This document shows positions 6,248 through 40,168 of a stretch of DNA of 64,000 nucleotides, one piece after another. The notes beneath the pieces were generated by a model. The model made no database searches, was not told the origin of the DNA, and worked only from the letters and a program-made list of their open reading frames with translations. The position numbers and the translations under genes are program-made. Position 1 is the stretch's first letter. Each line of letters opens with the position of its first letter. This DNA comes from Hufsiella arboris (GTDB lineage Bacteria > Bacteroidota > Bacteroidia > Sphingobacteriales > Sphingobacteriaceae): positions 62,001 to 126,000 of the forward strand of contig NZ_WVHT01000010.1 of NCBI RefSeq assembly GCF_009834875.1, written 5' to 3'.

Positions 6248-6814
6248 TTACTCCACCGTCTTTTTAATCCGCGCATCCTTCCTCACGATCCACCAATACA
6301 TCACCCCAAGCAAAATCACATAAAGCACGATATTAAACAGCGTATGATGGTCCATCCCCAGCGAAACCTTGTTCCAGTAAAGCGACAAAAGCACAAAACG
6401 AATAATATTCAAAACCTGGATCAGGATCAATCCAAGTACAAGAAACAGCCACTTATCTTTAAACGGCTTTGGCCAGGCCAGCACAAACGCGGTAAAAAAA
6501 CTCATAACCCCGTAACCAAGGCATGAATAAATGAGAATAATTCCTCCATGTCCGGGAACACTCAGAACTGTATCTGTCGTCATCGACGAATAACCCAATA
6601 GGCTGAGTATCTTAGCAGATAAAAACAGCAGAATATGTCTGAACCAACGGATATAGTTCAGGTGCTCATCTAGAAAAGGAAAATATAATCCTCCTTTTGC
6701 CGTGATTCCGATATATAACAGGTTGAACCAGTATAATCCGGCAAACAGTATCAGGAATAAAACAGCAAAGCGGGTTGCAGGATCCTTGAACCACTTATTT
6801 CTTAACATCGTCAA
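6248..6814 (-). CDS. xrtY: Exosortase, XrtY-like (EPS-associated)
   Basis: Integral membrane protein of 188 residues with about six hydrophobic segments. The three exosortase/archaeosortase catalytic residues are in place: Cys98 in IYSCLGYG, Arg139 in LNIIRF and His156 or His157 in MDHHTLFN. Exosortases are membrane transpeptidase-like enzymes that recognise a C-terminal tripartite signal (short motif, transmembrane helix, basic cluster) on secreted proteins and cleave or transfer them. Its start overlaps the preceding glycosyltransferase by 20 bp, indicating translational coupling. The neighbourhood (XYAG1-like glycosyltransferase, Wzy-like protein, Wzc/Wza) is the one I associate with exosortase Y of Sphingobacteria; the subtype assignment is from memory. 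The candidate substrate is the protein at 39782-40168. Confidence 0.82.
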   Translation of the reverse strand: MTMLRNKWFKDPATRFAVLFLILFAGLYWFNLLYIGITAKGGLYFPFLDEHLNYIRWFRHILLFLSAKILSLLGYSSMTTDTVLSVPGHGGIILIYSCLGYGVMSFFTAFVLAWPKPFKDKWLFLVLGLILIQVLNIIRFVLLSLYWNKVSLGMDHHTLFNIVLYVILLGVMYWWIVRKDARIKKTVE

Positions 6815-7678: not shown

Positions 7679-8980
7679 TTACTGCGCGTAATTGTTAACC
7701 GAATTATACAGTTGAAGATATTTGCTGGTTAATGCTTTTTCTTCAAAATCTGACTTGATTTTTGATGGCGCCGCTTTCCGAATTTCTTGAAGTTTCTCAC
7801 GATTTTTATTGACATCTAAAAGCGTCTCACGAATATTTTGAACGTTGACTGAACTGACCCATCCGAAGTCATTTTCTTTCACATAGTCGGATAGACCCAC
7901 CCGATTGCTCACTAATACAGCTGTGCCCATCGCAAGGCTTTCGATGACCACATTCGCGAAGTTTTCGTCGTAGGAGGGCAGTATTAATAGGTCATGATTT
8001 TTAAGTATGTCCCATTTCTCATCCTGATCAACCTGACCTATCCAATGGATACGCGGTTCGAGACCTGATGATTTACTCTTGCTTTTTAATGTCTCAACGT
8101 AGCTCTCATCTCCTGAGCCCGCGACAGTAAGAATCCAGCTGATTTGCAGTTCGCTAAGAGCATCAAACAATAGATCAAGCCCTTTTTTTTCTTCTATGCG
8201 TGAAAGAAATAATAGCCTTAAAGGTTGTTCCTCTGATTCATAACTAATAGATGGTACTTGCTCGTTTCGAACACGAGGTATCTTAACAAAGTTCGGAATG
8301 ATGGTAATACTTTTCGGATGTTCTACGAGATGCAGGATGTCTCCTTTTTCCTTTTCACTGGTCACATGAAAATGGCAGTATTCAAGTAAAGTCTTCCCGA
8401 GAAACCGGTGGATGTTATCCTTGACGCCCGCGTTGCGATTGCCGAATGAATATCCGCTTAACGTTCCTCTTGGACTAAGAATAACCGGCGTATTTTTCCA
8501 TTTCGCAATCAGACAGGAGAAGATTGAAACAAGGTTCCACCAAGCGTGAATGTGAACGATCGGTTTGGCCGGAGTGCCGTCACTGCGAGGCATGAAGCAG
8601 TCTCTCTCTCTAATCTTTTTTTTATAAATTTTGGGTTGCTTAAGCTTCTTCCATAAACCCCAATATAAAGCCGGGCTAAAATGCGTATGGTCTTTCGTTA
8701 AGCGTTTAAAATAGGTAACAGGAACGCCATCTACATATGTGGTTTTCCCTGGCTCAACGTTCAGCTCCTGCAGGCCGTTTGCGGTCGAGGTCAGGACCTC
8801 AACCGTCACCGGACTGAGCGCTTGTTCGTCCTCTGGCGTGGGAGTCAAGGTGGATGTCACACTGAGCGCAGTCAAAGTGCCAGCCTTAACCAACTCTTCA
8901 CATAATTTCGATACCGACATCGTTGGCCCACCATATATGTAAGCAGGCTTGTAGGAAGCGGAAATTTGGAAGATTTTCAT
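7679..8980 (-). CDS. GT4 glycosyltransferase, XrtY-associated XYAG1-like, with in-frame repeat insertions
   Basis: Protein of 433 residues. The start KIFQISASYKPAYIYGGPT, the segment LTSTANGLQELNVEPG and TKDHTHFSPALYW match what I recall of the XYAG1 glycosyltransferases that accompany exosortase Y. HIHAWWN and a GT4 donor region (LLFLSRIEEKKGLDLL, then SYDENFANVVIESLAMGTAVLVS) follow. Two segments look foreign. Residues about 35-59 are encoded by two copies of the TGTCAnnCTGAGCG genomic repeat, and residues about 122-137 (ERDCFMPRSDG) by the CGTCACTGCGAGGCA repeat. Both keep the frame. They sit before the TANG strand and before the HIHAWW strand, possibly in surface loops. Whether the enzyme still works is unknown. 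Confidence 0.82.
   Translation of the reverse strand: MKIFQISASYKPAYIYGGPTMSVSKLCEELVKAGTLTALSVTSTLTPTPEDEQALSPVTVEVLTSTANGLQELNVEPGKTTYVDGVPVTYFKRLTKDHTHFSPALYWGLWKKLKQPKIYKKKIRERDCFMPRSDGTPAKPIVHIHAWWNLVSIFSCLIAKWKNTPVILSPRGTLSGYSFGNRNAGVKDNIHRFLGKTLLEYCHFHVTSEKEKGDILHLVEHPKSITIIPNFVKIPRVRNEQVPSISYESEEQPLRLLFLSRIEEKKGLDLLFDALSELQISWILTVAGSGDESYVETLKSKSKSSGLEPRIHWIGQVDQDEKWDILKNHDLLILPSYDENFANVVIESLAMGTAVLVSNRVGLSDYVKENDFGWVSSVNVQNIRETLLDVNKNREKLQEIRKAAPSKIKSDFEEKALTSKYLQLYNSVNNYAQ
8578..8606. repeat. CGTCACTGCGAGGCA repeat inside a CDS
   Basis: A 29-bp stretch matching the intergenic repeat seen at 32119-32143, 40238-40263 and 40291-40318 (core CGTCAnTGCGAGGnAnnAAGCAnTC). Here it lies inside the XYAG1-like glycosyltransferase and is translated, in minus-strand sense, as part of the ERDCFMPRSDG segment. 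Confidence 0.75.
8803..8879. repeat. Two direct TGTCAnnCTGAGCG repeat units inside a CDS
   Basis: One divergent unit at about 8803-8822 and one near-canonical unit at 8855-8879 (TGTCACACTGAGCGCAGTC), both in the same direction. They encode an extra segment of roughly 25 residues near the N-terminus of the XYAG1-like glycosyltransferase. The same family occurs at 10873-10963, 31195-31217 and 43634-43674. Confidence 0.75.
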
Positions 8981-9020: not shown

Positions 9021-10433
9021 TTATCTTTTTACAATGATGCCAAAAGACTTGAGGGCGTAAAATACCAGGAACATGCTAATATAACTCCAGAAAATAGCGT
9101 TAAAAATAAATTCAAAGCTATTGCCCCGCCAGAATATTTGAAAAAGGCCGGTAAACATTACTGCCGTACCTAGAAAGTATCCTCCGAAAATCGATTCGGC
9201 TTTAATAGATATCTTCTGTGCAAGGAACCCATATAAAAAAAGTCCAACCCATACACCGATCATGCCCCCGGATAGGTAGCAATCAACTATGTAGGCTGGC
9301 TTTGCGGAAACAACAGCGTCTTCGCTTACAACACCGGCAGCATATACGCGTTGCATAACGAGTTCTTCTGTAACCGGTTTAGAAAGCCATATAGCTCGTG
9401 GTATGATCGCTTCTGCTGATTGCTTTAAAAGGCTGAAGTGATAAAAAGGGACTTGTTGAGGTGTGGATTTCGCAAACTGAGTAAACATCTCGATTTCGGA
9501 GATACGGCTGGTCAGGAAAGCCCAGTTATCTTTTCTGATATCTTGCTGCAAATTTTCATTGTTAAAAACGGCATCTAATGCCTTATCCCTTGCAAGCTGT
9601 GACGATTCACCTGAAAAAGCGCTTTGACGAAAAACTGCTATGAATGTTGGCAGCACAACAAAAAGCGCAATCAATGCGGCGCCGAAAACAGGGTATACTT
9701 TTTTCCCGTAAAGCGGTATCAAAAAGATTCCTAGTAGTAACACGCTTACAATGATTGGTTCCTTAAAACCAGAGATAAGGGCCTGTAAGAAGTTTAAAAC
9801 AAACAAACCGGCGCTGACTACCGTATTTCCTTTTCGGTTTTCTCGGAGTGAGTAAGCAAGCGATAATGTGCCGGCTACAAAACTCAAACCTGTTGCCTGC
9901 ACACTGAACTGTGACAGGGCGCCCACCGATCTGAACACATAACTTAAAGGAAGGCTAAGCAACGCCATTTTAAGCAGGAAATTGCTCATTGAATCGACGT
10001 GAAGAGAATATTTGTTTTCTATTGGGTAACTCATCGCGCTGATAAGGCCGTGCGCCAGCGCTGCATGCCCCAATACGTAGTAACGTTGACAGCGCGCAAT
10101 GTCTGCAAGCGCACCCGTTGTATCATATTCTGTACCTACATAGGTAAAATACTCGTAGCCCAATGTATTCATGTAGTAGAATATAGAGGTGCAGGCCATG
10201 TACCCGGCAAATATAATATGCGTTAACAGAAACGGTCTTAACAGTTGCTGTTCCGCAGGCAGGTCAGTTGGAAGTTTTTTCAGTTTACCGGTAAACGAGA
10301 TATAAAATATATAAAAAGATCCCATCCATGCTGTCAGGTAGGATGCATTTGGGAAATCCATAAGCAGCAGCGCCAATATAAATGGAAAGTACAGGATTAA
10401 ATACTTAAGTGGATTGCTATTATCCTTGTTCAT
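9021..10433 (-). CDS. Wzy-like / O-antigen-ligase-like membrane protein (XrtY-associated)
   Basis: Protein of 470 residues made of many hydrophobic segments (about ten or more), beginning with YLILYFPFILALLLMDFP. A large loop between residues about 270 and 385 contains PFYHFSLLKQSAEAIIPRAI and is probably periplasmic. This layout is that of Wzy polymerases and O-antigen ligases, which join or transfer lipid-linked glycans on the periplasmic face. A family with this name is known to travel with exosortase Y. The start overlaps the upstream glycosyltransferase stop by 14 bp. Whether it polymerises repeat units or ligates glycan to another acceptor cannot be decided from sequence alone. Confidence 0.78.
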   Translation of the reverse strand: MNKDNSNPLKYLILYFPFILALLLMDFPNASYLTAWMGSFYIFYISFTGKLKKLPTDLPAEQQLLRPFLLTHIIFAGYMACTSIFYYMNTLGYEYFTYVGTEYDTTGALADIARCQRYYVLGHAALAHGLISAMSYPIENKYSLHVDSMSNFLLKMALLSLPLSYVFRSVGALSQFSVQATGLSFVAGTLSLAYSLRENRKGNTVVSAGLFVLNFLQALISGFKEPIIVSVLLLGIFLIPLYGKKVYPVFGAALIALFVVLPTFIAVFRQSAFSGESSQLARDKALDAVFNNENLQQDIRKDNWAFLTSRISEIEMFTQFAKSTPQQVPFYHFSLLKQSAEAIIPRAIWLSKPVTEELVMQRVYAAGVVSEDAVVSAKPAYIVDCYLSGGMIGVWVGLFLYGFLAQKISIKAESIFGGYFLGTAVMFTGLFQIFWRGNSFEFIFNAIFWSYISMFLVFYALKSFGIIVKR

Positions 10434-29444: not shown

Positions 29445-29851
29445 TTTTCTATCGCAAAATAGTTTATAAACTGATTGTAATCGCGAATATAATCCGCCTC
29501 GTCGTATTCATTTGAAGCAATTACTAACTGGACAGCGCTGTGCGAATATTGCATAGTGTGCCAGCAAAGTTTAGGTAAATATAAGCCCACGTCCGGGCTT
29601 TCAAGTTTGAATTCCGCTCTTGAACCATCTATCAATTCAGTCGTAATTCGAATATTTCCTGAGACAGCCACCAAAACAAGTTCTTTGTCAATGTTAGCAT
29701 GTCCGCCTCTTTTAATACTTTGCGGGGTATAGTAGGTCCAATAGGTTCTCTTAATAGAGAAAGGTATGTTTTCAAATTCCTGGCCAACTGAAATGAAGCC
29801 AAGCTCGGATGATCCTATCGACTCAAATTGAATGAGGTAAGGCTGGCTCAT
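29441..29851 (-). CDS. dTDP-4-keto-6-deoxyhexose 3,4-ketoisomerase (QdtA/FdtA-like cupin)
   Basis: Protein of 136 residues, a single cupin of the WxcM/FdtA family. The landmarks are FSIKRTYWTYYTPQ, followed by RGGHANIDKELVLVAVSGNI, holding the conserved Arg and His of the active site, and YLPKLCWHTMQYS. The family moves the keto group of dTDP-4-keto-6-deoxyglucose to C3, giving the substrate of the adjacent aminotransferase. Whether the product has gluco (QdtA) or galacto (FdtA) configuration cannot be decided by eye. The gene starts 29 bp inside the 3' end of wzt. Confidence 0.83.
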   Translation of the reverse strand: MSQPYLIQFESIGSSELGFISVGQEFENIPFSIKRTYWTYYTPQSIKRGGHANIDKELVLVAVSGNIRITTELIDGSRAEFKLESPDVGLYLPKLCWHTMQYSHSAVQLVIASNEYDEADYIRDYNQFINYFAIEK

Positions 29852-31124
29852 AATTGTTTTCAGAATATTCCAAATTGTATTTTATCTCAGGCCGTATAAC
29901 ACCAGGTAATATGTTGTTATTTGAGCCGAAACTTTCATTAAGTATTTCAAATTGTATAAAATCATCAACGGTAAATAATGCGTAACGTTGATCTTCTCCG
30001 AAAATCAGATTGAATTTGTAAATTCCTGCATTTATCAAATTTGAGGGAATAACCCCCTCAACAACATAATATCCTTGTTTCGAATCCTTATGTATGGTTA
30101 TAAGTTTAGCGTGATGAAATACAGCAACATCATCAATGGTGCGAAGCTCAAAAGTAGTGTCTAGGTTAATGCCGGATTTTGAGTTATAAAATTTTATTTT
30201 AAAGCTAAAACCCGATGAAATTGAAATTTCATTTCCGTTTAACGGCAAAACAGAAAATGAAAGAATACGAATATCGTCATTTCCAGGAGCTTCTTCTAAC
30301 TTACCGGTATGGTGGAATGAGGAAATAGAATTATTAAGGCTTTGGTAATAATTAATGGCCTCCAGGTGGTTTCCTGAAAAAGTAAGTCCACCATTTTTTA
30401 AGACAATTCCTTTTGTACAAAGCTGCTTTACAGCTGCCATATTATGACTTACAAACAAAACTGTCCGTCCTTCTCCCTTACTCACATCACCCATTTTTCC
30501 TAAACATTTTTTCTGGAATTCTGCATCTCCAACAGCTAACACCTCGTCTACAATCAGTATTTCCGATTCAAGGTGTGCAGCAACAGCGAAGGCCAGGCGT
30601 ACATACATTCCGGAAGAATAGCGTTTTACAGGTGTATCGATGTAACGTTCCACACCAGCAAAATCGACAATCTCATCGAACTTTCGTTTAATCTCTTCTT
30701 TGCGCATGCCCAGGATAGCGCCGTTCAAAAAAATATTTTCCCGTCCGCTCAGGTCGGGGTGAAAGCCGGTACCCACTTCCAATAAACTTGCTACACGTCC
30801 TTTAACTTTTACGGCGCCGGTAGTAGGGGATGTAACCCGGCTCAGGATTTTGAGTAAGGTACTTTTTCCTGCGCCATTGCGTCCGATGATTCCTACCGCA
30901 TCACCTTGCTGGATATCAAAGTTAATATCCCGAAGACTCCAAACGTATTCGCTTTCGCCTTTGCTGGTACGGTCGTTCGCTTCGCCGATTTTTAAATAGG
31001 GATTTTCTTTCCCACGAACGGTGTGCCACCAACGATTAATGTCATGCGACAGCGAACCAGTGCCGATTTGGCCGAGGCGGTATTGCTTGCTTAGGTTTTC
31101 TACTTTGATGACGGTATTACTCAC
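29823..31124 (-). CDS. wzt: ABC exporter ATPase with Wzt-type C-terminal domain
   Basis: Protein of 433 residues. Residues 1-250 are the nucleotide-binding domain: Walker A GRNGAGKST (81-89), signature YSSGMYVRLAFAVAAHL (a variant of LSGGQ typical of polysaccharide exporters), and Walker B ILIVDEVLAVGD. Residues about 265-410 are a beta-rich C-terminal domain as in Wzt, which in O-antigen exporters recognises the terminal cap of the finished glycan. The partner permease gene lies 94 bp upstream. The presence of the C-domain suggests export of a capped, pre-assembled chain. Confidence 0.9.
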   Translation of the reverse strand: MSNTVIKVENLSKQYRLGQIGTGSLSHDINRWWHTVRGKENPYLKIGEANDRTSKGESEYVWSLRDINFDIQQGDAVGIIGRNGAGKSTLLKILSRVTSPTTGAVKVKGRVASLLEVGTGFHPDLSGRENIFLNGAILGMRKEEIKRKFDEIVDFAGVERYIDTPVKRYSSGMYVRLAFAVAAHLESEILIVDEVLAVGDAEFQKKCLGKMGDVSKGEGRTVLFVSHNMAAVKQLCTKGIVLKNGGLTFSGNHLEAINYYQSLNNSISSFHHTGKLEEAPGNDDIRILSFSVLPLNGNEISISSGFSFKIKFYNSKSGINLDTTFELRTIDDVAVFHHAKLITIHKDSKQGYYVVEGVIPSNLINAGIYKFNLIFGEDQRYALFTVDDFIQFEILNESFGSNNNILPGVIRPEIKYNLEYSENNYEPALPHSI

Positions 31125-31218: not shown

Positions 31219-32091
31219 TTAAACAGTATCCATGAACGTTTTTTCCACCTTATTAAAAAGGATAGCTCCGACAAACAGAACAACAAACATAAACGCAATA
31301 CTGTAAATCATGGCATTAGGGTCAACAGTTCCTTTACCAAATAATGCAAAACGAAACGCTTCTGTCACTGCGGTTAAAGGATTCAGGTCGATCACCCATT
31401 TATAGCTCTTATTCCGTAAATAAGAAAGCGGGTAGGCGATAGGTGTGATATACATGCCCAACTGCACGGCAAATCCTAAAAGAACGGTGAAGTCACGATA
31501 CTTGGTGGTAACGGACGAAATGATGATTCCCATGCCGAGGCCTATGCCAGCCATTAACGCAAGTATTAAAGGAATCGTTAACCAATACCAGCTTAAATGA
31601 ATCGGGTAACCGTTAAACTGCATATAGATCATCACGACCAGCAACAGTAAAAACTGGATGCCAAATTTTACGATATTGGATATCACAACCGATAAGGGAA
31701 TAACCAGCCTTGGGAAATAAACTTTTCCAAATATAGCGGCATTGGATGTGAATGTGTTAGAAGTACTTGTCAGACAGGTCGAAAAATAATTCCAGATGGT
31801 AATGCCTGACATGTAAAAAAGTGTAGGGTTAATACCGTCGGTTGGTATTTTCGCAATCTTACCGAAGACAAGTAAAAACATGATCGTTGTCAGGATCGGC
31901 TGAATGAAGTGCCACACCGGCCCTAAGACAGTTTGCTTGTATTGGGCTACGAAATCCCGGCGGACAAATAACCACATCAGGTCTCGATAATGCCAAACAT
32001 CTTGAAGATGCAGGTCGAGAAGGTTGGTTTTGGGTTTTATCTCCAGGTCCCAGTGTTCTTCTTGTGTTTTTATGTTTTCTGCGGTTTGCAT
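31219..32091 (-). CDS. wzm: ABC polysaccharide exporter permease
   Basis: Protein of 290 residues of the ABC-2 (TagG/Wzm) family. A cytoplasmic N-terminus ends in LWLFVRRDFVAQYKQTVLGP, the conserved amphipathic interface motif, followed by six hydrophobic segments (for example PILTTIMFLLVFGKI, IQFLLLLVVMIYM, VLLGFAVQLGMYITPI) and an LNPLTAVTEAFRFALFG motif near the C-terminus. With the Wzt-type ATPase it should carry undecaprenyl-linked glycan across the inner membrane. It is separated from the downstream wzt by a short repeat-bearing gap. Confidence 0.9.
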   Translation of the reverse strand: MQTAENIKTQEEHWDLEIKPKTNLLDLHLQDVWHYRDLMWLFVRRDFVAQYKQTVLGPVWHFIQPILTTIMFLLVFGKIAKIPTDGINPTLFYMSGITIWNYFSTCLTSTSNTFTSNAAIFGKVYFPRLVIPLSVVISNIVKFGIQFLLLLVVMIYMQFNGYPIHLSWYWLTIPLILALMAGIGLGMGIIISSVTTKYRDFTVLLGFAVQLGMYITPIAYPLSYLRNKSYKWVIDLNPLTAVTEAFRFALFGKGTVDPNAMIYSIAFMFVVLFVGAILFNKVEKTFMDTV

Positions 32092-32149: not shown

Positions 32150-33247
32150 TCATGCAACCAGTAAATCGGAAATCTTTTCCCTGTACTGCTCAAAACCATA
32201 TTTTTCGAAAATTGCTGCTTGTATATCGACCGGATTTAATTGTCGGCTTAGCAGTTTTGAAGTTATTTCTTCGATACTTTTGGGATCGCGGTTATCGCAA
32301 AGCATGCCTGTTTGATTTTCAATAACAGCATCGGCGCTTCCGTCCCGGTTTCCGGCCAGGGATGGAGTTCCACAAGCACCCGCTTCAATAAAAGAAATAC
32401 CGAATCCTTCGCCTTCGCTGGGCATTACAAAAGCATCGGCTAATTGATAATGGTCGCTCAATTCTTCATCGGTAACGAACCCGGTTAGCGTAACATGCTT
32501 CTGAACGCCGGTTTCTTTGATCAATTTTTCAATACGTTCTTTTTCAGCTTCGTCAGCTTTTCCCCCAATCAGGTAATGTAGATCGGGATGCTTTTCCAAA
32601 AGAGCAGGTAGGATTTCAATAACCTTATCGTAACCTTTATATTGTTCCGAAGATGACAAACGAGCCAGGGTGAATAAGACCGGTTGATCGCGAAGCTGAT
32701 ATCTTTCCTTTAAATATTGAGGTTTTGAATTCAGTTCGACCTTCGGAAAAAATGGATCAAGGCAATTTGGAAAAACGATAATTTTCCGAGATTCGACCTT
32801 ATGTTTTTCAATAAGCTGTTGTTTGGTGAATCTGCTGACCGCCAAAATCACGTTTGCGTCAGCTAAGGTTTTTTTTTGTATGCTGCTTAGGGGCCGCCAA
32901 ACCTCTATTCCATGCGCATGGATGATCACTTTAAGCGAAGGCTTCAGCCATTTGGCGATAACTGAGATTACTGCCAAATTTATATGGCTTAATACCAAAA
33001 TGTCTTTTTTCAGTGCCTGGCTGATACTTTTTATCGTGAACAACAGTTTCTTTCCTTTAAAGCCTTCAAACCTATTAGTAGCAATGTATTTTTCGTTTGC
33101 GGATTTATCGAGCAGCACGTTCGCTTTTACCTTAATCTTATTGTCGATATGAAGATTATCTAGTACTTTCAACCAGGCGCGATTCACTTTCTCGATACCT
33201 CCTGTCTGGCTGAAACAGCTTAACCCCACATACAGGACCTTTTTCAA
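32150..33247 (-). CDS. GT4-family glycosyltransferase
   Basis: Protein of 365 residues. KVLYVGLSCFSQTGGIEKVN is the GT4 start with its glycine loop, IHAHGIEVW sits in the acceptor domain, and VLFTLARLSSSEQYKGYDKV, LTGFVTDEELSDHYQLADAF and MPSEGEGFGISFIEAGACGT, with the E-x7-E donor motif, lie in the donor domain. This is one of the best preserved GT4 enzymes of the locus. Its start overlaps the AsnB gene stop by 4 bp. Confidence 0.9.
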   Translation of the reverse strand: MKKVLYVGLSCFSQTGGIEKVNRAWLKVLDNLHIDNKIKVKANVLLDKSANEKYIATNRFEGFKGKKLLFTIKSISQALKKDILVLSHINLAVISVIAKWLKPSLKVIIHAHGIEVWRPLSSIQKKTLADANVILAVSRFTKQQLIEKHKVESRKIIVFPNCLDPFFPKVELNSKPQYLKERYQLRDQPVLFTLARLSSSEQYKGYDKVIEILPALLEKHPDLHYLIGGKADEAEKERIEKLIKETGVQKHVTLTGFVTDEELSDHYQLADAFVMPSEGEGFGISFIEAGACGTPSLAGNRDGSADAVIENQTGMLCDNRDPKSIEEITSKLLSRQLNPVDIQAAIFEKYGFEQYREKISDLLVA

Positions 33248-35058
33248 GCAGCGTTTTCTTCAAACTTTCTCATTACCAGTAAACTCATGGGTTTCGACCA
33301 GTGAATTTTACCAGCTTCAAAACCACGGAGCATTGATTCGACTTCTGCGTTGTTTTTATAACTATTCTTCAACTGTCTATAGGCGTCATTCTCCTGCAGC
33401 CATTCCTGGAAAGGGAAGGTAAAACCCATCTTCGGCCGGTTCCAAACCTGCTCGGGAAGAAGATTTCCGAAAGCGTTGATTAGGAGATGCTTTGCGGGTT
33501 TTGCCGGATCAAACACAACCTTTTCGTCCAGGTTGTTTGCGATTTCGACTAAATTGTCATCAAGGAAGGGAACACGTATTTCAAGTCCGTGCTGCATGCT
33601 CATAAAATCAGCGTCTTTCAGCAATTGGTTTTGCATGAAATAATTCTGCTCGTACCAGGCGGCAAGCTGTCCGTTCCAGCATCCAGGTTTCAGGCTTACC
33701 GGTTCAGGCAATCCATCCAGAACTTTTTCCTGTGTGCAGCCATTGATTCCTGCTATGTTCTTAATTTGCTGCGGATTGAAAAGTCCTCTCAGGAATAGAT
33801 ATTCGTAGATACTATTCGTCGTATTTTTTAAATACCCAGCTCTTTTTAAAGCGTCTTTGCCTGTTAATGCAGCGGCAAATTGAATCGATTTACGCCATGA
33901 ACGTGCCATCGGGATTTTCTGGACACGTTTAAATGAAGGGTAGCCGCCGAAAAGTTCGTCGGCACCGATACCCGATAATACGGCTGTGAGTCCCGCGTCA
34001 TGAGCAGCCTTTGACACGAACCAGGAATTGATTCCGTCCGTAGTAGGCTGATCCATTCCATCTAAAATCTGCTGAAGATAGCGGTGAAAATCTTTCTTCG
34101 TAATTTCCGAGGATATATGTTGTCCTGGCAGTTTATCACTTACCAATTTTTGATAACTCTTTTCGGAAAAGCGAGCCTCTGGAAAATGGAGCGAAACAGT
34201 CAGTAAATTATTCCCCTGGTATTTAGCAGCTTGCAAGGCCAGGAGCGAACTGTCGATTCCGCCGCTTAAAAAAACACCGATCGAGGCATCTGAGACAAGT
34301 TGCCGCCGTATGGCGCGGTCAAGGTAATCGTCAACCAGTTGCTGAGTTTCAGCCAGGTCCGTATGTAACTTAGTATGGCTTTCTTCCTTGTAACTGCGTA
34401 AAACTGTTTCGCCCGATCTGAAATTATATTTGAGGAAATGCCCTTTCGAAAGCATAAATACATCTTTCAGCGTTGTCATTGGAGCGGGAAGATGGCCGCA
34501 GCTTAAGAACGCGGTTTTCCATTCACTCGGTTCCAGGTGAATTGGTGCTTTTTTAAAAGCTTTCACTTCGGAAGCGAATACCAGTTCCTGGTCTTTCTGA
34601 TAGTAATATAATGGCTTGATACCTTGCTGATCACGCACGAGATAAAGGCATTGTTGATTTTTATCAAGCAATCCGAAGGCAAACATACCTTTGAACATCG
34701 CAAAACAAGAGTTTCCCCATTCCTGGTAGGCATGCAGGATCACCTCTGTATCCGAGGTGCTTTTGAATTGATGCCCGATTTTTACCAGTTCACTTTTCAG
34801 TTCAGGAAAATTGTAGATCTCTCCGTTAAATACGATAGCTATTCTCTCATCGGGAGCAAACATCGGTTGATGTCCGGCCGGCGATAGATCGAGCAGCGAC
34901 AGGCGCCTATGACTAAGAGCAACCGGGAGTTCTTCGTCCGAATAATAACCGGCATCGTCCGGACCGCCGTGTGCCTGGATATCCGCCATAGCTTTAACAA
35001 ACTCGTAAAGCTGCTCTTTCGAATATTTTTTAGAAACTATTCCGGCAATTCTGCACAT
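33244..35058 (-). CDS. asnB: Glutamine-dependent asparagine synthase-like amidotransferase
   Basis: Protein of 604 residues. The N-terminal glutaminase domain has the nucleophile Cys2 (MCRIAGIV), HRRLSLLDLSPAGHQPM and IVFNGEIYNFPEL. The synthetase domain has the PPi loop GVFLSGGIDSSLLALQ and LSGIGADELFGGYPSF. AsnB converts aspartate to asparagine, but AsnB-like enzymes in exosortase-linked EPS loci are thought to amidate a sugar acid or another locus-specific substrate. It is the first gene after the 610-bp repeat gap following the antiterminator gene, and heads the biosynthetic block. Confidence 0.88.
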   Translation of the reverse strand: MCRIAGIVSKKYSKEQLYEFVKAMADIQAHGGPDDAGYYSDEELPVALSHRRLSLLDLSPAGHQPMFAPDERIAIVFNGEIYNFPELKSELVKIGHQFKSTSDTEVILHAYQEWGNSCFAMFKGMFAFGLLDKNQQCLYLVRDQQGIKPLYYYQKDQELVFASEVKAFKKAPIHLEPSEWKTAFLSCGHLPAPMTTLKDVFMLSKGHFLKYNFRSGETVLRSYKEESHTKLHTDLAETQQLVDDYLDRAIRRQLVSDASIGVFLSGGIDSSLLALQAAKYQGNNLLTVSLHFPEARFSEKSYQKLVSDKLPGQHISSEITKKDFHRYLQQILDGMDQPTTDGINSWFVSKAAHDAGLTAVLSGIGADELFGGYPSFKRVQKIPMARSWRKSIQFAAALTGKDALKRAGYLKNTTNSIYEYLFLRGLFNPQQIKNIAGINGCTQEKVLDGLPEPVSLKPGCWNGQLAAWYEQNYFMQNQLLKDADFMSMQHGLEIRVPFLDDNLVEIANNLDEKVVFDPAKPAKHLLINAFGNLLPEQVWNRPKMGFTFPFQEWLQENDAYRQLKNSYKNNAEVESMLRGFEAGKIHWSKPMSLLVMRKFEENAA

Positions 35059-36261: not shown

Positions 36262-38670
36262 CTATCCTCTGCTCCCCCTCTTCCAAAACTCCCACCACTT
36301 CTTATCATCCTCATAATAGCCGGCTCCCGAATATCCCGAGTAATCAGAATAGTAATACGTATTGCCGCTTCCACGTGAGTAATCAGTCGTGTAGATGTTC
36401 GCGTGTAACGCATCATCGCCAAATGCATTCAATACAATCGCGACGTTCGTCAGGCCGTATTCCCGGGAAATTCTTTCCGGTACAGAAGCTGCCCGGTTTT
36501 GCGAAATACCTGAGCGAAGCACGAACAGGTTAATGTCAGAATTCCGGATCATCGGTACCGCGTCAGAAACCAGTCCCACCGGAGCTGTGTCGAACAATAC
36601 GTAATCATAACGGTCCTGCAGGATCGCGAATAATTCAACCATTTTATCGCTGTGTAATAGCTCCGAAGGATTCGGCGGAATTGGCCCCGAGGAGATGAAA
36701 TCAATACCATGTGAAGTATTGTGTTCGATAATTTCATCCAATCCGTATTTACCCGACAGGTAATTGCTCAAGCCTTTTTTATTGTCTGTATCGAAAGCCT
36801 TATGCAGTTTTGATTTTCGCAGATCCGCTGCAACCAGTAATACTTTTTTATCGATAAGTGCAAGCGTTACGGCAAGATTAAGGGTGATAAATGATTTTCC
36901 CTCACCGGAGATTTCGGATGTTACGCAGATGATCTTGCTTTTTTTATGGCTTGCCATAAAACTAAGATTTGTGCGCACTGAACGTACTGATTCCGCAAAT
37001 ACCGATTTCGGTTTCTCTACTGATAGAACCTGCTTGCTGTTCTGGTCGATATATTCCGGGAATTTCCTGATCACTCCAATAATAGGTGTGGTGGTCAATC
37101 CTTCAACTGCTTCCTTATCATAGATGTATGGATTGAGAATACGGATTAGTAATATCAGTCCGGCACCTGCTGCCAGTCCCGCTAGTAAAGCCGAAATATA
37201 GATCTGCCGTGGCACAGGTGAAATTGGGAAGAATGAAGGTTGTGCAAGGTTTACGATCGTTGCGCCGGGAACAATTGCCGCCGCGCTGATCTGTGATTCC
37301 AGTTTTTTCTCTGAAAGATAGGAGTAGACCTTCTGGTTGATATCAAATTTGGATTGCAGGGTTGCAAACTCTTTTTGTGTTCCGGGCAGCCGGTTCAGGT
37401 TTTGATTAACCTGGGCAATCTGGGCATCAATATACCTGATGGTCTTTTGATTTCGCTCGTGCAGCGAATTGATATTATTGCGTATGGCTTGTTTGATCTC
37501 GTTAATTTGCCGGTCAAGGTCCTTTATAGGGGCCGACTCCGGGTTGAACTGCGTCAGTTTCTGTTCGCGGTTGGCGATAAGAGAATTTAATTGAGTCACA
37601 AGGCCTCCGAGCAGGGAGCCTATTTCACCTTCAAGGTCAAAATTGATCTGTATGCGCTGCTTGTTACCGGCGATCTGTGTCTCCAGTTGACGAATGCCAA
37701 GCTCGGCGATATTCAACTCTGTTTTTTGCTTTTCAAAGTCGCCTAGTTTGCCGACTGCCATTTGTGTATTGGTGTTCAGGTCAACGACATTATTTTGTGT
37801 TTTATAGCGTGCCAGGTCTGTACCGGAAGCCGCGACCTGTTCATTCAAAAATTCCAGTTGGCTGTCTATAAAGTCGATGGTCTGCTGTGCTCCCTTGCGC
37901 CGTTGGCTGGCATCGTAAGTGACGTATTCCTTCATCACAGCGTTAAGGATGTCAGCTGCAAACACCGGGTTCTGGTCGGTATTGCTTAGGTTCATCACAT
38001 TGGTGAACTTCGCTGCTTCCATGGTATTGATGCCGAATGCCCGGCCCATGAAATCGTATTTGGAATTGAACTTGAAGCTGTATTGCCCGGATGAGGGAAC
38101 CGGCGTAGTAACCCGGAAGATCATGTTTCCCTCGCTGATATCCTGCCCGTAACGATAGGTTTTATAGCTTTTTGATCCCGATACACCGAGCTTAAAGCTC
38201 GTACTGCTCACAGAACTGATGTCATATATTGCGCGGCTGAAGTTTACCGAATCCTGTTTGGCGATGTCAACTGTAAACGGTACGGTTGGATAAAGTTCCG
38301 TTGTCCGTACCCGCCCCTTAAGAAAATAAGAAACTTTGTAATTCAGCCTGCCTATTGCGTTTAATATTACATCATTCGATTTGATCACATAACTTTCCGC
38401 CTTGATCTTATCGGTAAAATTGCCCATCGACGAGTAATCGGGACTGGTACGAACGGCATTAGATAAAGCGCCTTGTTTATCATCGAATTTCAAAGACGCG
38501 AAGGTCATATATACCGGCGGTGTATACCAGATATAAAGCCAGGCTATAACCAGTGAAATGACTAAACATCCGGCGATCCAGTACCAGCGGCTGAGGAACA
38601 CCTTGATAATCTTCCAGAAATCAATACTCTGGCTGGCGGTCTTTTTTACCGTTTCAGTAGTTTGATCCAT
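36262..38670 (-). CDS. wzc: Wzc-like polysaccharide co-polymerase with BY-kinase domain
   Basis: Protein of 802 residues. The N-terminal Wzz domain has one transmembrane segment near residues 30-50 (WYWIAGCLVISLVIAWLYIW), a long periplasmic coiled-coil with a GNVR-type end (LPGTQKEFATLQSKFDINQK) and a second transmembrane segment (YISALLAGLAAGAGLILLI). The cytoplasmic BY-kinase has Walker A GEGKS at about 589-593, Walker A' VLLVAADLRKS and Walker B VLFDTAP near 692-697. The tail (about 760-786) carries nine tyrosines for autophosphorylation. It controls chain length and export with Wza. No cognate phosphatase gene is in the window. It is 2 bp downstream of wza. Confidence 0.92.
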   Translation of the reverse strand: MDQTTETVKKTASQSIDFWKIIKVFLSRWYWIAGCLVISLVIAWLYIWYTPPVYMTFASLKFDDKQGALSNAVRTSPDYSSMGNFTDKIKAESYVIKSNDVILNAIGRLNYKVSYFLKGRVRTTELYPTVPFTVDIAKQDSVNFSRAIYDISSVSSTSFKLGVSGSKSYKTYRYGQDISEGNMIFRVTTPVPSSGQYSFKFNSKYDFMGRAFGINTMEAAKFTNVMNLSNTDQNPVFAADILNAVMKEYVTYDASQRRKGAQQTIDFIDSQLEFLNEQVAASGTDLARYKTQNNVVDLNTNTQMAVGKLGDFEKQKTELNIAELGIRQLETQIAGNKQRIQINFDLEGEIGSLLGGLVTQLNSLIANREQKLTQFNPESAPIKDLDRQINEIKQAIRNNINSLHERNQKTIRYIDAQIAQVNQNLNRLPGTQKEFATLQSKFDINQKVYSYLSEKKLESQISAAAIVPGATIVNLAQPSFFPISPVPRQIYISALLAGLAAGAGLILLIRILNPYIYDKEAVEGLTTTPIIGVIRKFPEYIDQNSKQVLSVEKPKSVFAESVRSVRTNLSFMASHKKSKIICVTSEISGEGKSFITLNLAVTLALIDKKVLLVAADLRKSKLHKAFDTDNKKGLSNYLSGKYGLDEIIEHNTSHGIDFISSGPIPPNPSELLHSDKMVELFAILQDRYDYVLFDTAPVGLVSDAVPMIRNSDINLFVLRSGISQNRAASVPERISREYGLTNVAIVLNAFGDDALHANIYTTDYSRGSGNTYYYSDYSGYSGAGYYEDDKKWWEFWKRGSRG

Positions 38671-38672
38671 GC

Positions 38673-39482
38673 TTACAGGCGTGAAAATGTTAAAATAACT
38701 AAGGCAAGATTGACAATCGTCAGCAGAGGCTGAACAATGGTATTGATGTTCTGTACTTTCGAATTTAAGGCCGCCGACTTGGTAGGCTGTATATAAACGA
38801 TATCGTCATTTTGCAAAACCAGTTTCTTGCTGGCCAGGCTGTTGATATCGTTCAGGTTCACGTAAATAATTTCAGGGTTGGCACGGTCGCCGCGTATGAT
38901 CTTTACCGTCTTCGGGTCGGCAGTGGCGCTGATTCCGCCGGCTTCGCCGATAATGTCTATTAAAGTAGTATTGTCTTTAGTTAAAAGGTAGTTTCCCTGT
39001 TTGCTGAACTCGCCCAGCAGGGTTACTTTAAGGTTGACTACAGTTAGCTGGATGATAGGATTTTTTAATAGCTTTTTCTCATAGAGGTCCTGAATCTTCA
39101 TGGTCGCCTGCCTGCGGCTGAGTCCGGCTACTTCAACTTTTCCGATCGCCGGTAAATTAACGCTTCCGTCCTGTTCAACGGGATAAGTGACTGAGTTGGA
39201 GTTATTGCCAGGAGTAGCACTCGCTGTAGTGGTAGCAGCTCCTGTACTTCCGAATTCCTGGTTCTGCAGGTTTTGGATTGCAAGCAGGTCATTGGCTTTT
39301 ATTTTATACCAGCTGTCGCTTTCTCCGTGATCGTTAACTACATAAACATGTTTAATGGTATCCGTGACGAGGTCACTGGGCGCGGTGAAAAGCGCCTGTT
39401 TTTTCCTGACAGCACAGGAACTGAGAAAAACTGTGATAATGCTGAATAATAATAATGTCGTCTTAACCTTTAACCGAACCAT
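38673..39482 (-). CDS. wza: Wza-like polysaccharide export lipoprotein
   Basis: Protein of 269 residues. The signal peptide ends in a lipobox (VFLSSCAVRKK), giving an outer-membrane lipoprotein. The Poly_export domain (WYKIKANDLLAIQN, then VEQDGSVNLPAIGKVEVAGL) is followed by an SLBB domain (VTLLGEFSKQGNYLLTKDNT). A hydrophobic C-terminal helix (PLLTIVNLALVILTFSRL) probably spans the outer membrane. It forms the exit channel that docks on Wzc. First gene of the minus-strand EPS transcript, divergent from the putative exosortase substrate with about 300 bp between them. Confidence 0.92.
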   Translation of the reverse strand: MVRLKVKTTLLLFSIITVFLSSCAVRKKQALFTAPSDLVTDTIKHVYVVNDHGESDSWYKIKANDLLAIQNLQNQEFGSTGAATTTASATPGNNSNSVTYPVEQDGSVNLPAIGKVEVAGLSRRQATMKIQDLYEKKLLKNPIIQLTVVNLKVTLLGEFSKQGNYLLTKDNTTLIDIIGEAGGISATADPKTVKIIRGDRANPEIIYVNLNDINSLASKKLVLQNDDIVYIQPTKSAALNSKVQNINTIVQPLLTIVNLALVILTFSRL

Positions 39483-39781
39483 CTAAATACAAAAATTCCC
39501 CCCGCTAAGATGCTTAAAATTTTAAAATTAAGTGTTTAAAAATTTAATTTCTTGGAGCGGAACAAAAATCAAACCTTATTCGGATGCACTCTTTTAATTA
39601 CGGGAATTGTGTAGAACTGTGAATTATTTTCTCAAATTGATTAGAAGTTTCCCCTTTCGATAAAAGCTCTTTAGCGATAAAATTTAAGACGACTATGTTG
39701 ATTTGCCTTAATCAGTTTGTTAACTGATTTTTGCGAAATATTTCCACGATGGCATAAAAAATGCAGGAAGTGGGCGAGCTT
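39483..39781. promoter_or_regulatory. Divergent intergenic region between wza and the sorting-tail protein
   Basis: About 300 bp, very AT-rich, between two divergent starts. It must hold the promoters of both the EPS operon and the small secreted protein gene. No clean TAnnTTTG element was found on either strand, so a different sigma factor or an activator may be used. Confidence 0.45.
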
Positions 39782-40168
39782 ATGAAAAGATTTCTATCGG
39801 TATTCATTCTTTTCTTTTTAGTATTGCTGAGTGAAAAAGGGTTTTCGCAAACCCCTCCTCCCGCACCTGATGGCTACGTTTATTATGCAAGTTTTGTCGA
39901 TGGAAATCCTTGCGATGGGACAGGAACTGGATGTACCTATTATACATATCGCAAAAGAGTGGGAGCTAGTTGGTCATACATGGACATTGTAGCTGATTGT
40001 CCTCCTTCTGGTTATCATAATACTAATGCCGATGCCGATGGAACTCCTACTGGACCCGCAAATTTTGAACCTTGTCCTGAAACAAGTGTTCCTCTTGACA
40101 ATTATATCTACATCCTGGTTGTAATTGCTGCTGGCTTTGGTTTTTATAAACTAAAACGCATTATCTAA
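39782..40168 (+). CDS. Small secreted protein with PID-CTERM-like sorting tail, candidate exosortase substrate
   Basis: Starting at the second Met (MKRFLSVFILFFLVLLSEKG) the protein has 128 residues with a standard signal peptide ending near GFSQ. An ATG seven codons earlier is possible but would put an acidic stretch before the signal peptide. The mature part (about 80 residues) is rich in Pro, Gly and Tyr and has four Cys (NPCDG, GTGCTYY, ADCPPSG, EPCPE), probably two disulfides. The C-terminus is a tripartite sorting signal: VPLDN motif, hydrophobic helix YIYILVVIAAGFGFY, and basic end KLKRII, closely resembling PID-CTERM tails of Bacteroidota. It is divergent from wza and followed by a strong terminator. 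It is the only such tail seen in this window. Confidence 0.85.
   Translation: MKRFLSVFILFFLVLLSEKGFSQTPPPAPDGYVYYASFVDGNPCDGTGTGCTYYTYRKRVGASWSYMDIVADCPPSGYHNTNADADGTPTGPANFEPCPETSVPLDNYIYILVVIAAGFGFYKLKRII

Follow-up and report, generated by a model that had tools for sequence, protein, structure and literature searches.

A candidate exosortase Y substrate at the head of a polysaccharide locus of Hufsiella arboris, and its counterparts in Pedobacter

To our knowledge, few or no substrates are known for the exosortases of Bacteroidota, those of XrtF are not known, and which molecule exosortases transfer their substrates to has yet to be settled. Our literature search found no experiment on XrtY or PID-CTERM. 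In the PEP-CTERM system, PepA turns soluble exopolysaccharide (EPS) into cell-bound EPS and restores flocs (PMC9850573), and in Flavobacterium johnsoniae deletion of XrtF abolished zorbs and cut biofilm formation (PMC10936215). Exosortases have been proposed to act as transpeptidases, as sortases do, and the paper that founded the field suggested an EPS-associated nucleophile (PMC1569441).

The window analysed here is a stretch of 64,000 nucleotides (G000:C2:62001-126000) from a nearly complete 4.8-Mb genome in 56 contigs. It carries a small secreted protein, P0001, at the head of an EPS locus that ends in an exosortase gene. The features discussed below are, in window coordinates:

6248-6814, minus strand: exosortase Y, XrtY (NF046083), 212 bits against a cut-off of 160, with CxG (C98), NxxR (R139) and HH (H156/H157)
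7679-8980, minus strand: XrtY-associated glycosyltransferase XYAG1 (NF046085), 597 bits against 400
9021-10433, minus strand: exosortase Y-associated Wzy-like polymerase (NF046084), 669 bits against 420
33244-35058, minus strand: asparagine-synthase-like amidotransferase (TIGR01536), below the cut-off for the XrtA-system amidotransferase TIGR03108
35669-36160, minus strand: NusG-family protein, probably an operon-specific antiterminator, from its family match and synteny in relatives
36262-38670, minus strand: Wzc-like chain-length determinant and tyrosine autokinase, from domain matches
38673-39482, minus strand: Wza-like polysaccharide export protein, first gene of the EPS operon (Poly_export and SLBB; synteny), divergent from P0001
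39483-39520, minus strand: promoter-proximal motif of wza, TTTTAAGCATCTT, conserved in relatives
39750-39765, plus strand: tentative sigma-54-like site, TGGCATAAAAAATGCA, the only exact match in the window, 17-32 bases before the P0001 start codon
39782-40168, plus strand: P0001, candidate XrtY substrate of 128 aa, with a signal peptide, a four-Cys ectodomain and a VPLDN-TM-KLKR tail
40084-40165, plus strand: sorting tail of P0001 (VPLDN, hydrophobic helix, basic end), from the Pedobacter-only tail profile (E=1.1e-8) and alignment

XrtY is the only exosortase match in the genome and lies 33 kb from P0001 in the same locus, where a previous sequence-only reading of this DNA had put it. It keeps C98, R139 and H156/H157, the catalytic cysteine, arginine and histidine that are invariant or nearly so in an alignment of 70 exosortases. 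P0001 is divergent from wza and adjoins it (39482/39782). An ABC-type polysaccharide exporter (Wzm/Wzt-like, 31219-32091 and 29823-31124) sits inside this Wzy/Wza/Wzc-type locus, so that the cluster holds two export routes, as it does in relatives. The XrtY-associated Wzy gene has one in-frame TAA and a reduced score in genomes G104, G139, G190 and G227, possibly through decay or as a second subtype.

P0001 begins with a hydrophobic signal peptide, MKRFLSVFILFFLVLLSEKGFSQ; an in-frame ATG at 39761 offers an alternative start and a protein of 135 aa. By inspection of the translation, four cysteines (C44, C51, C73 and C98) lie between the signal peptide and the C-terminal tail, VPLDNYIYILVVIAAGFGFYKLKRII, in which a P-x-D motif, a hydrophobic helix and basic residues at the very C-terminus make up a tripartite signal. 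The signal peptide, four-Cys ectodomain and VPLDN-helix-KLKR tail described earlier are therefore all present in the translation of 39782-40168. The tail had also been likened to PID-CTERM; the layout stands, but the match to the NCBIfam model PID_CTERM, over residues 103-126 of 128, scores 15.7 bits against a cut-off of 26, and in a genome-wide search 17.7 bits, still below it. The AlphaFold model has confident helices at both ends, the C-terminal one spanning residues 109-127, and an ectodomain of low confidence. No full-length orthologue of P0001 was found among 200 genomes of the family.

A tail profile made from Pedobacter loci, run against 703 ORFs of the window genome, matched P0001 at E=1.1e-8 and a protein on another contig, C55, at E=5e-13. 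A match of this strength to a profile made from Pedobacter loci alone shows that the P0001 tail is not a chance resemblance. The C55 protein (C55:164366; L001:1159-1587; G000:C55:164024-164452) has 142 aa, ends in ...CNVPLDDYVWLLFVAAGGFGLYKIKSTLGH / ...SCNVPLDDYVWLLFVAAGGFGLYKIKSTLGH and is unlinked to the EPS locus. It outscores P0001 on PID_CTERM, at 26.1 bits, just above the cut-off. Our count of tail proteins comes from profile searches with profiles seeded in part with P0001: a wider profile of 36 tails found exactly two proteins in the genome (E 1.7e-13 and 1.1e-10), the next match standing at 0.3. The sequence-only reading had taken P0001 for the single candidate substrate and proposed a genome search for similar C-termini; that search gave one further tail protein, C55, two in total, and both PID_CTERM and the 36-tail profile rule out a single substrate. 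Its one-enzyme, one-substrate arrangement is not supported: this genome has two substrates, and relatives have one to six in linked arrays and others that are unlinked.

Relatives were taken from 201 genomes of the same family, 87 of which have XrtY-type exosortases. In the Pedobacter genomes (g13) matches to PID_CTERM were few, and a nine-tail profile of the form [CV]P[IL]DxY found one to nine tail proteins in nearly all those with a high-scoring XrtY. By genome position these lie 30-45 kb from XrtY, and by gene order they are divergent from, and adjoin, wza-wzc-nusG-asnB. The window and its relatives share one order: substrate<->wza-wzc-nusG-asnB...wzy-XYAG1-XrtY. We also scanned 10 kb on each side of wza in 50 loci from named Pedobacter/Sphingobacteriaceae genomes with a wza product. 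One to six tail proteins lay within 10 kb upstream of wza in 49 of the 50 (180 proteins, almost all divergent from wza), the sole exception being a contig end, and none was found in the 10 kb downstream in any of the 50. The earlier emphasis on the head of the EPS locus was well placed: since tail proteins fill this very place in 49/50 Pedobacter-type loci, the position of P0001 is meaningful.

Array members have in common a Gly-Cys start, a Tyr, further Cys and a CP[LI]DDY tail. Their ectodomains show low pairwise similarity despite the fixed GC start, Cys and tail. Ten array-type proteins, the unlinked C55 protein included, matched no Pfam family and no meaningful NCBIfam family save the PID_CTERM tail of C55. 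One Pedobacter member was modelled by AlphaFold as a small beta fold (pLDDT 83), for which no PDB fold match was found at E<=0.001. In Pedobacter, soil bacteria related to the window organism, the arrays sit at exactly this spot and form a family with no model in the databases checked; their members are therefore probably the partners long sought for XrtY, either holding the sugar coat or displayed on it. Because paralogues in the Pedobacter slot have multiplied into arrays and diverged from one another, what varies and faces outward is probably the ectodomain, with the tail serving as a constant address label.

The P0001 tail conforms to the array type, [CV]P[IL]D-x-Y (E=1.1e-8). When its ectodomain was compared with the arrays, about 1-3% of shuffles did equally well, and the two best matches were both wza-proximal members; the kinship suggested by these sequences is no stronger than suggestive. 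The ectodomain of the C55 protein is clearly related to those of array members (E=8e-10). Any relationship between the P0001 ectodomain and those of Pedobacter is weak at most, so its role may differ from theirs.

Tail proteins and exosortases occur together. With match lists of short frames at E about 0.004, tail proteins were found in 65 of 87 exosortase-positive genomes versus 3 of 114 exosortase-negative ones. The type of tail varies with the exosortase clade: only 4 changes between the three types are required on a tree of 70 exosortases, compared with a mean of 23.2 when shuffled, though both this agreement and the co-occurrence also track organism phylogeny. The window XrtY falls outside the Pedobacter array clade, adjoining that of G012 (89/92 support), yet the tails of the window genome resemble those of Pedobacter. 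Taken together, these sequence comparisons strongly support a functional pairing of XrtY with the tail proteins, and P0001 is very probably an XrtY substrate.

Not all XrtY loci have a tail protein at their head. Genomes of an apparently Mucilaginibacter-like genus (g14) keep the XrtY locus and lack the array, and no tail protein was found at the locus head in G161 or G050. The sequence-only reading had taken homologous XrtY loci without such a protein as evidence against its proposal; g14 supplies them, with the qualification that a single short tail protein is encoded outside the EPS locus in many genomes of this genus. Because Mucilaginibacter-like genomes keep XrtY without the array, a primer or cap tied to the locus is not a requirement. 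The lone g14 tail protein, of 76-92 aa, follows a long conserved secreted protein of up to 1067 aa (L089, L062, L067, L083, L076, L175, L068), and the two are possibly a two-gene unit. In two of these genomes the short tail protein lies near an NlpC/P60-like gene, with a putative counterpart near the C55 gene of the window genome. PID-CTERM proteins also occur directly beside XrtX-like exosortases (L078, L082, L087, L040 and L063, in G074, G150, G179, G047 and G156).

The two sides of the locus head are probably transcribed independently, as wza is preceded by a conserved motif of its own that the substrates lack. The wza-upstream motif TTTTAAGCATCTTTA is present exactly in 10 of 47 regions and with at most two mismatches in 24 of 47, whereas shuffles give about 0.2. 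The 1.9 Mb of these loci contain 10 exact copies, equal to the number of wza regions that hold one, and in 16 Pedobacter loci a TATTTTTG-like box follows the motif after 4-5 bases. It is probably the promoter or operator of the EPS operon. A promoter common to wza and substrates was rejected, the AAGCATCTTTAA motif being found at wza only and absent upstream of substrates. The window genome encodes RpoN. No consistent sigma-54 site was found upstream of 86 homologues, and the wza-substrate intergenic regions of relatives show a mild excess, 8 sites versus 2.4 expected and versus 4 on the other strand; we rejected sigma-54 control as a family trait and keep the window site as tentative. Rfam elements around the locus head were sought and none was found.

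The reading we favour, and consider fairly likely, is that XrtY cleaves proteins of the P0001 type and passes them to the surface or matrix, where they retain, cross-link or decorate EPS. P0001 would be exported by Sec and stay anchored in the inner membrane through its C-terminal helix. XrtY would recognise the [VC]P[LI]DxY motif and cleave the tail, presumably by the Cys-Arg-His chemistry of its family. The cleaved protein would then reach the cell surface or matrix, and its small disulphide-stabilised ectodomain could retain, cross-link or decorate the exopolysaccharide of the locus. By analogy with the PEP-CTERM proteins of floc-forming bacteria, retention or decoration of that polysaccharide on the cell is the most likely role of the tail proteins. 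A bolder form, in which XrtY covalently links fast-diverging mini-proteins from the wza-side arrays to the locus polysaccharide and so gives each strain a protein-tagged glycan coat, with the window as a one-gene version plus an unlinked paralogue, strikes us as speculative and rather improbable.

The sequence-only reading suggested that P0001 may serve the polysaccharide as its own anchor, primer or cap. The chain would then be built on the tail protein or covalently joined to it, XrtY transferring the cleaved C-terminus to the glycan or to the lipid that carries it. This idea draws on the conserved position beside wza, on the sharing of one locus by XrtY and the polymerase, and on the transpeptidation and EPS-associated nucleophile suggested for exosortases (PMC1569441). 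One primer, though, would not be expected to come as two substrates here and one to six highly diverse ones in relatives, and some XrtY loci have no substrate linked to them. Since this genome has two substrates, relatives have arrays and g14 locus heads have none, a surface protein that coats the polysaccharide or keeps it on the cell is more likely than a primer or cap, which we think unlikely. That same diversity, extreme in the ectodomains under a constant tail and accompanied by array growth, would suit diversifying surface recognition or interaction proteins (for instance adhesins, phage-receptor decoys or self-recognition tags) for which the EPS-linked route is no more than a way out of the cell, as would a confident Pedobacter model (pLDDT 83) with no PDB fold match and ten scanned members outside Pfam and NCBIfam families. 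Tight linkage to wza, in place of scattered sites, fits better with a function that concerns the polysaccharide, and the window genome has no array, so we hold this reading to be a little less probable again. Least credible is that the C-terminal helix of P0001 is no exosortase signal and anchors an ordinary small secreted protein in the membrane. Its score below the PID_CTERM cut-off and the lack of an ectodomain homologue in 200 family genomes would fit, but its tail matches those of 180 proteins of relatives (E=1.1e-8) and its gene occupies the slot that they use; we consider this very unlikely.

Several described systems resemble the one favoured here, of small tail proteins passed by XrtY to the cell surface or matrix. 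PID-CTERM (NF046080) is likewise a C-terminal signal of small secreted proteins, made up of a P-[IL]-D motif, a hydrophobic helix and a basic end, and the unlinked C55 paralogue falls just over its cut-off. Its motif is VPIDGG, whereas P0001 and the Pedobacter arrays have [VC]P[LI]D-D/N-Y and are below the cut-off or unseen. The XrtY system is represented by NF046083, NF046084 and NF046085, all over cut-off in the window locus; no substrate model is tied to it among the matched families, and substrate arrays fill that place. PEP-CTERM/XrtA (EpsH) likewise joins an EPS-linked exosortase to a tripartite tail, with a sigma-54 site reported upstream of PEP-CTERM genes (PMC1569441, PMC9850573). It differs in having a PEP motif rather than the P-[LI]-D found here, in Bacteroidota, and in its scattered substrates, which in the relatives of the window are clustered beside wza and have no conserved sigma-54 site. 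XrtF of Flavobacterium is, like XrtY, a Bacteroidota exosortase, and one that affects surface colonisation and biofilm (PMC10936215), but it is a separate family: the window enzyme scores 41.8 bits on the XrtF model against a cut-off of 90. With a small substrate that has a soluble ectodomain, its enzyme and the polysaccharide genes all in one place, the question of the transfer target becomes directly testable in culturable Pedobacter, whose arrays are a ready set of natural variants.
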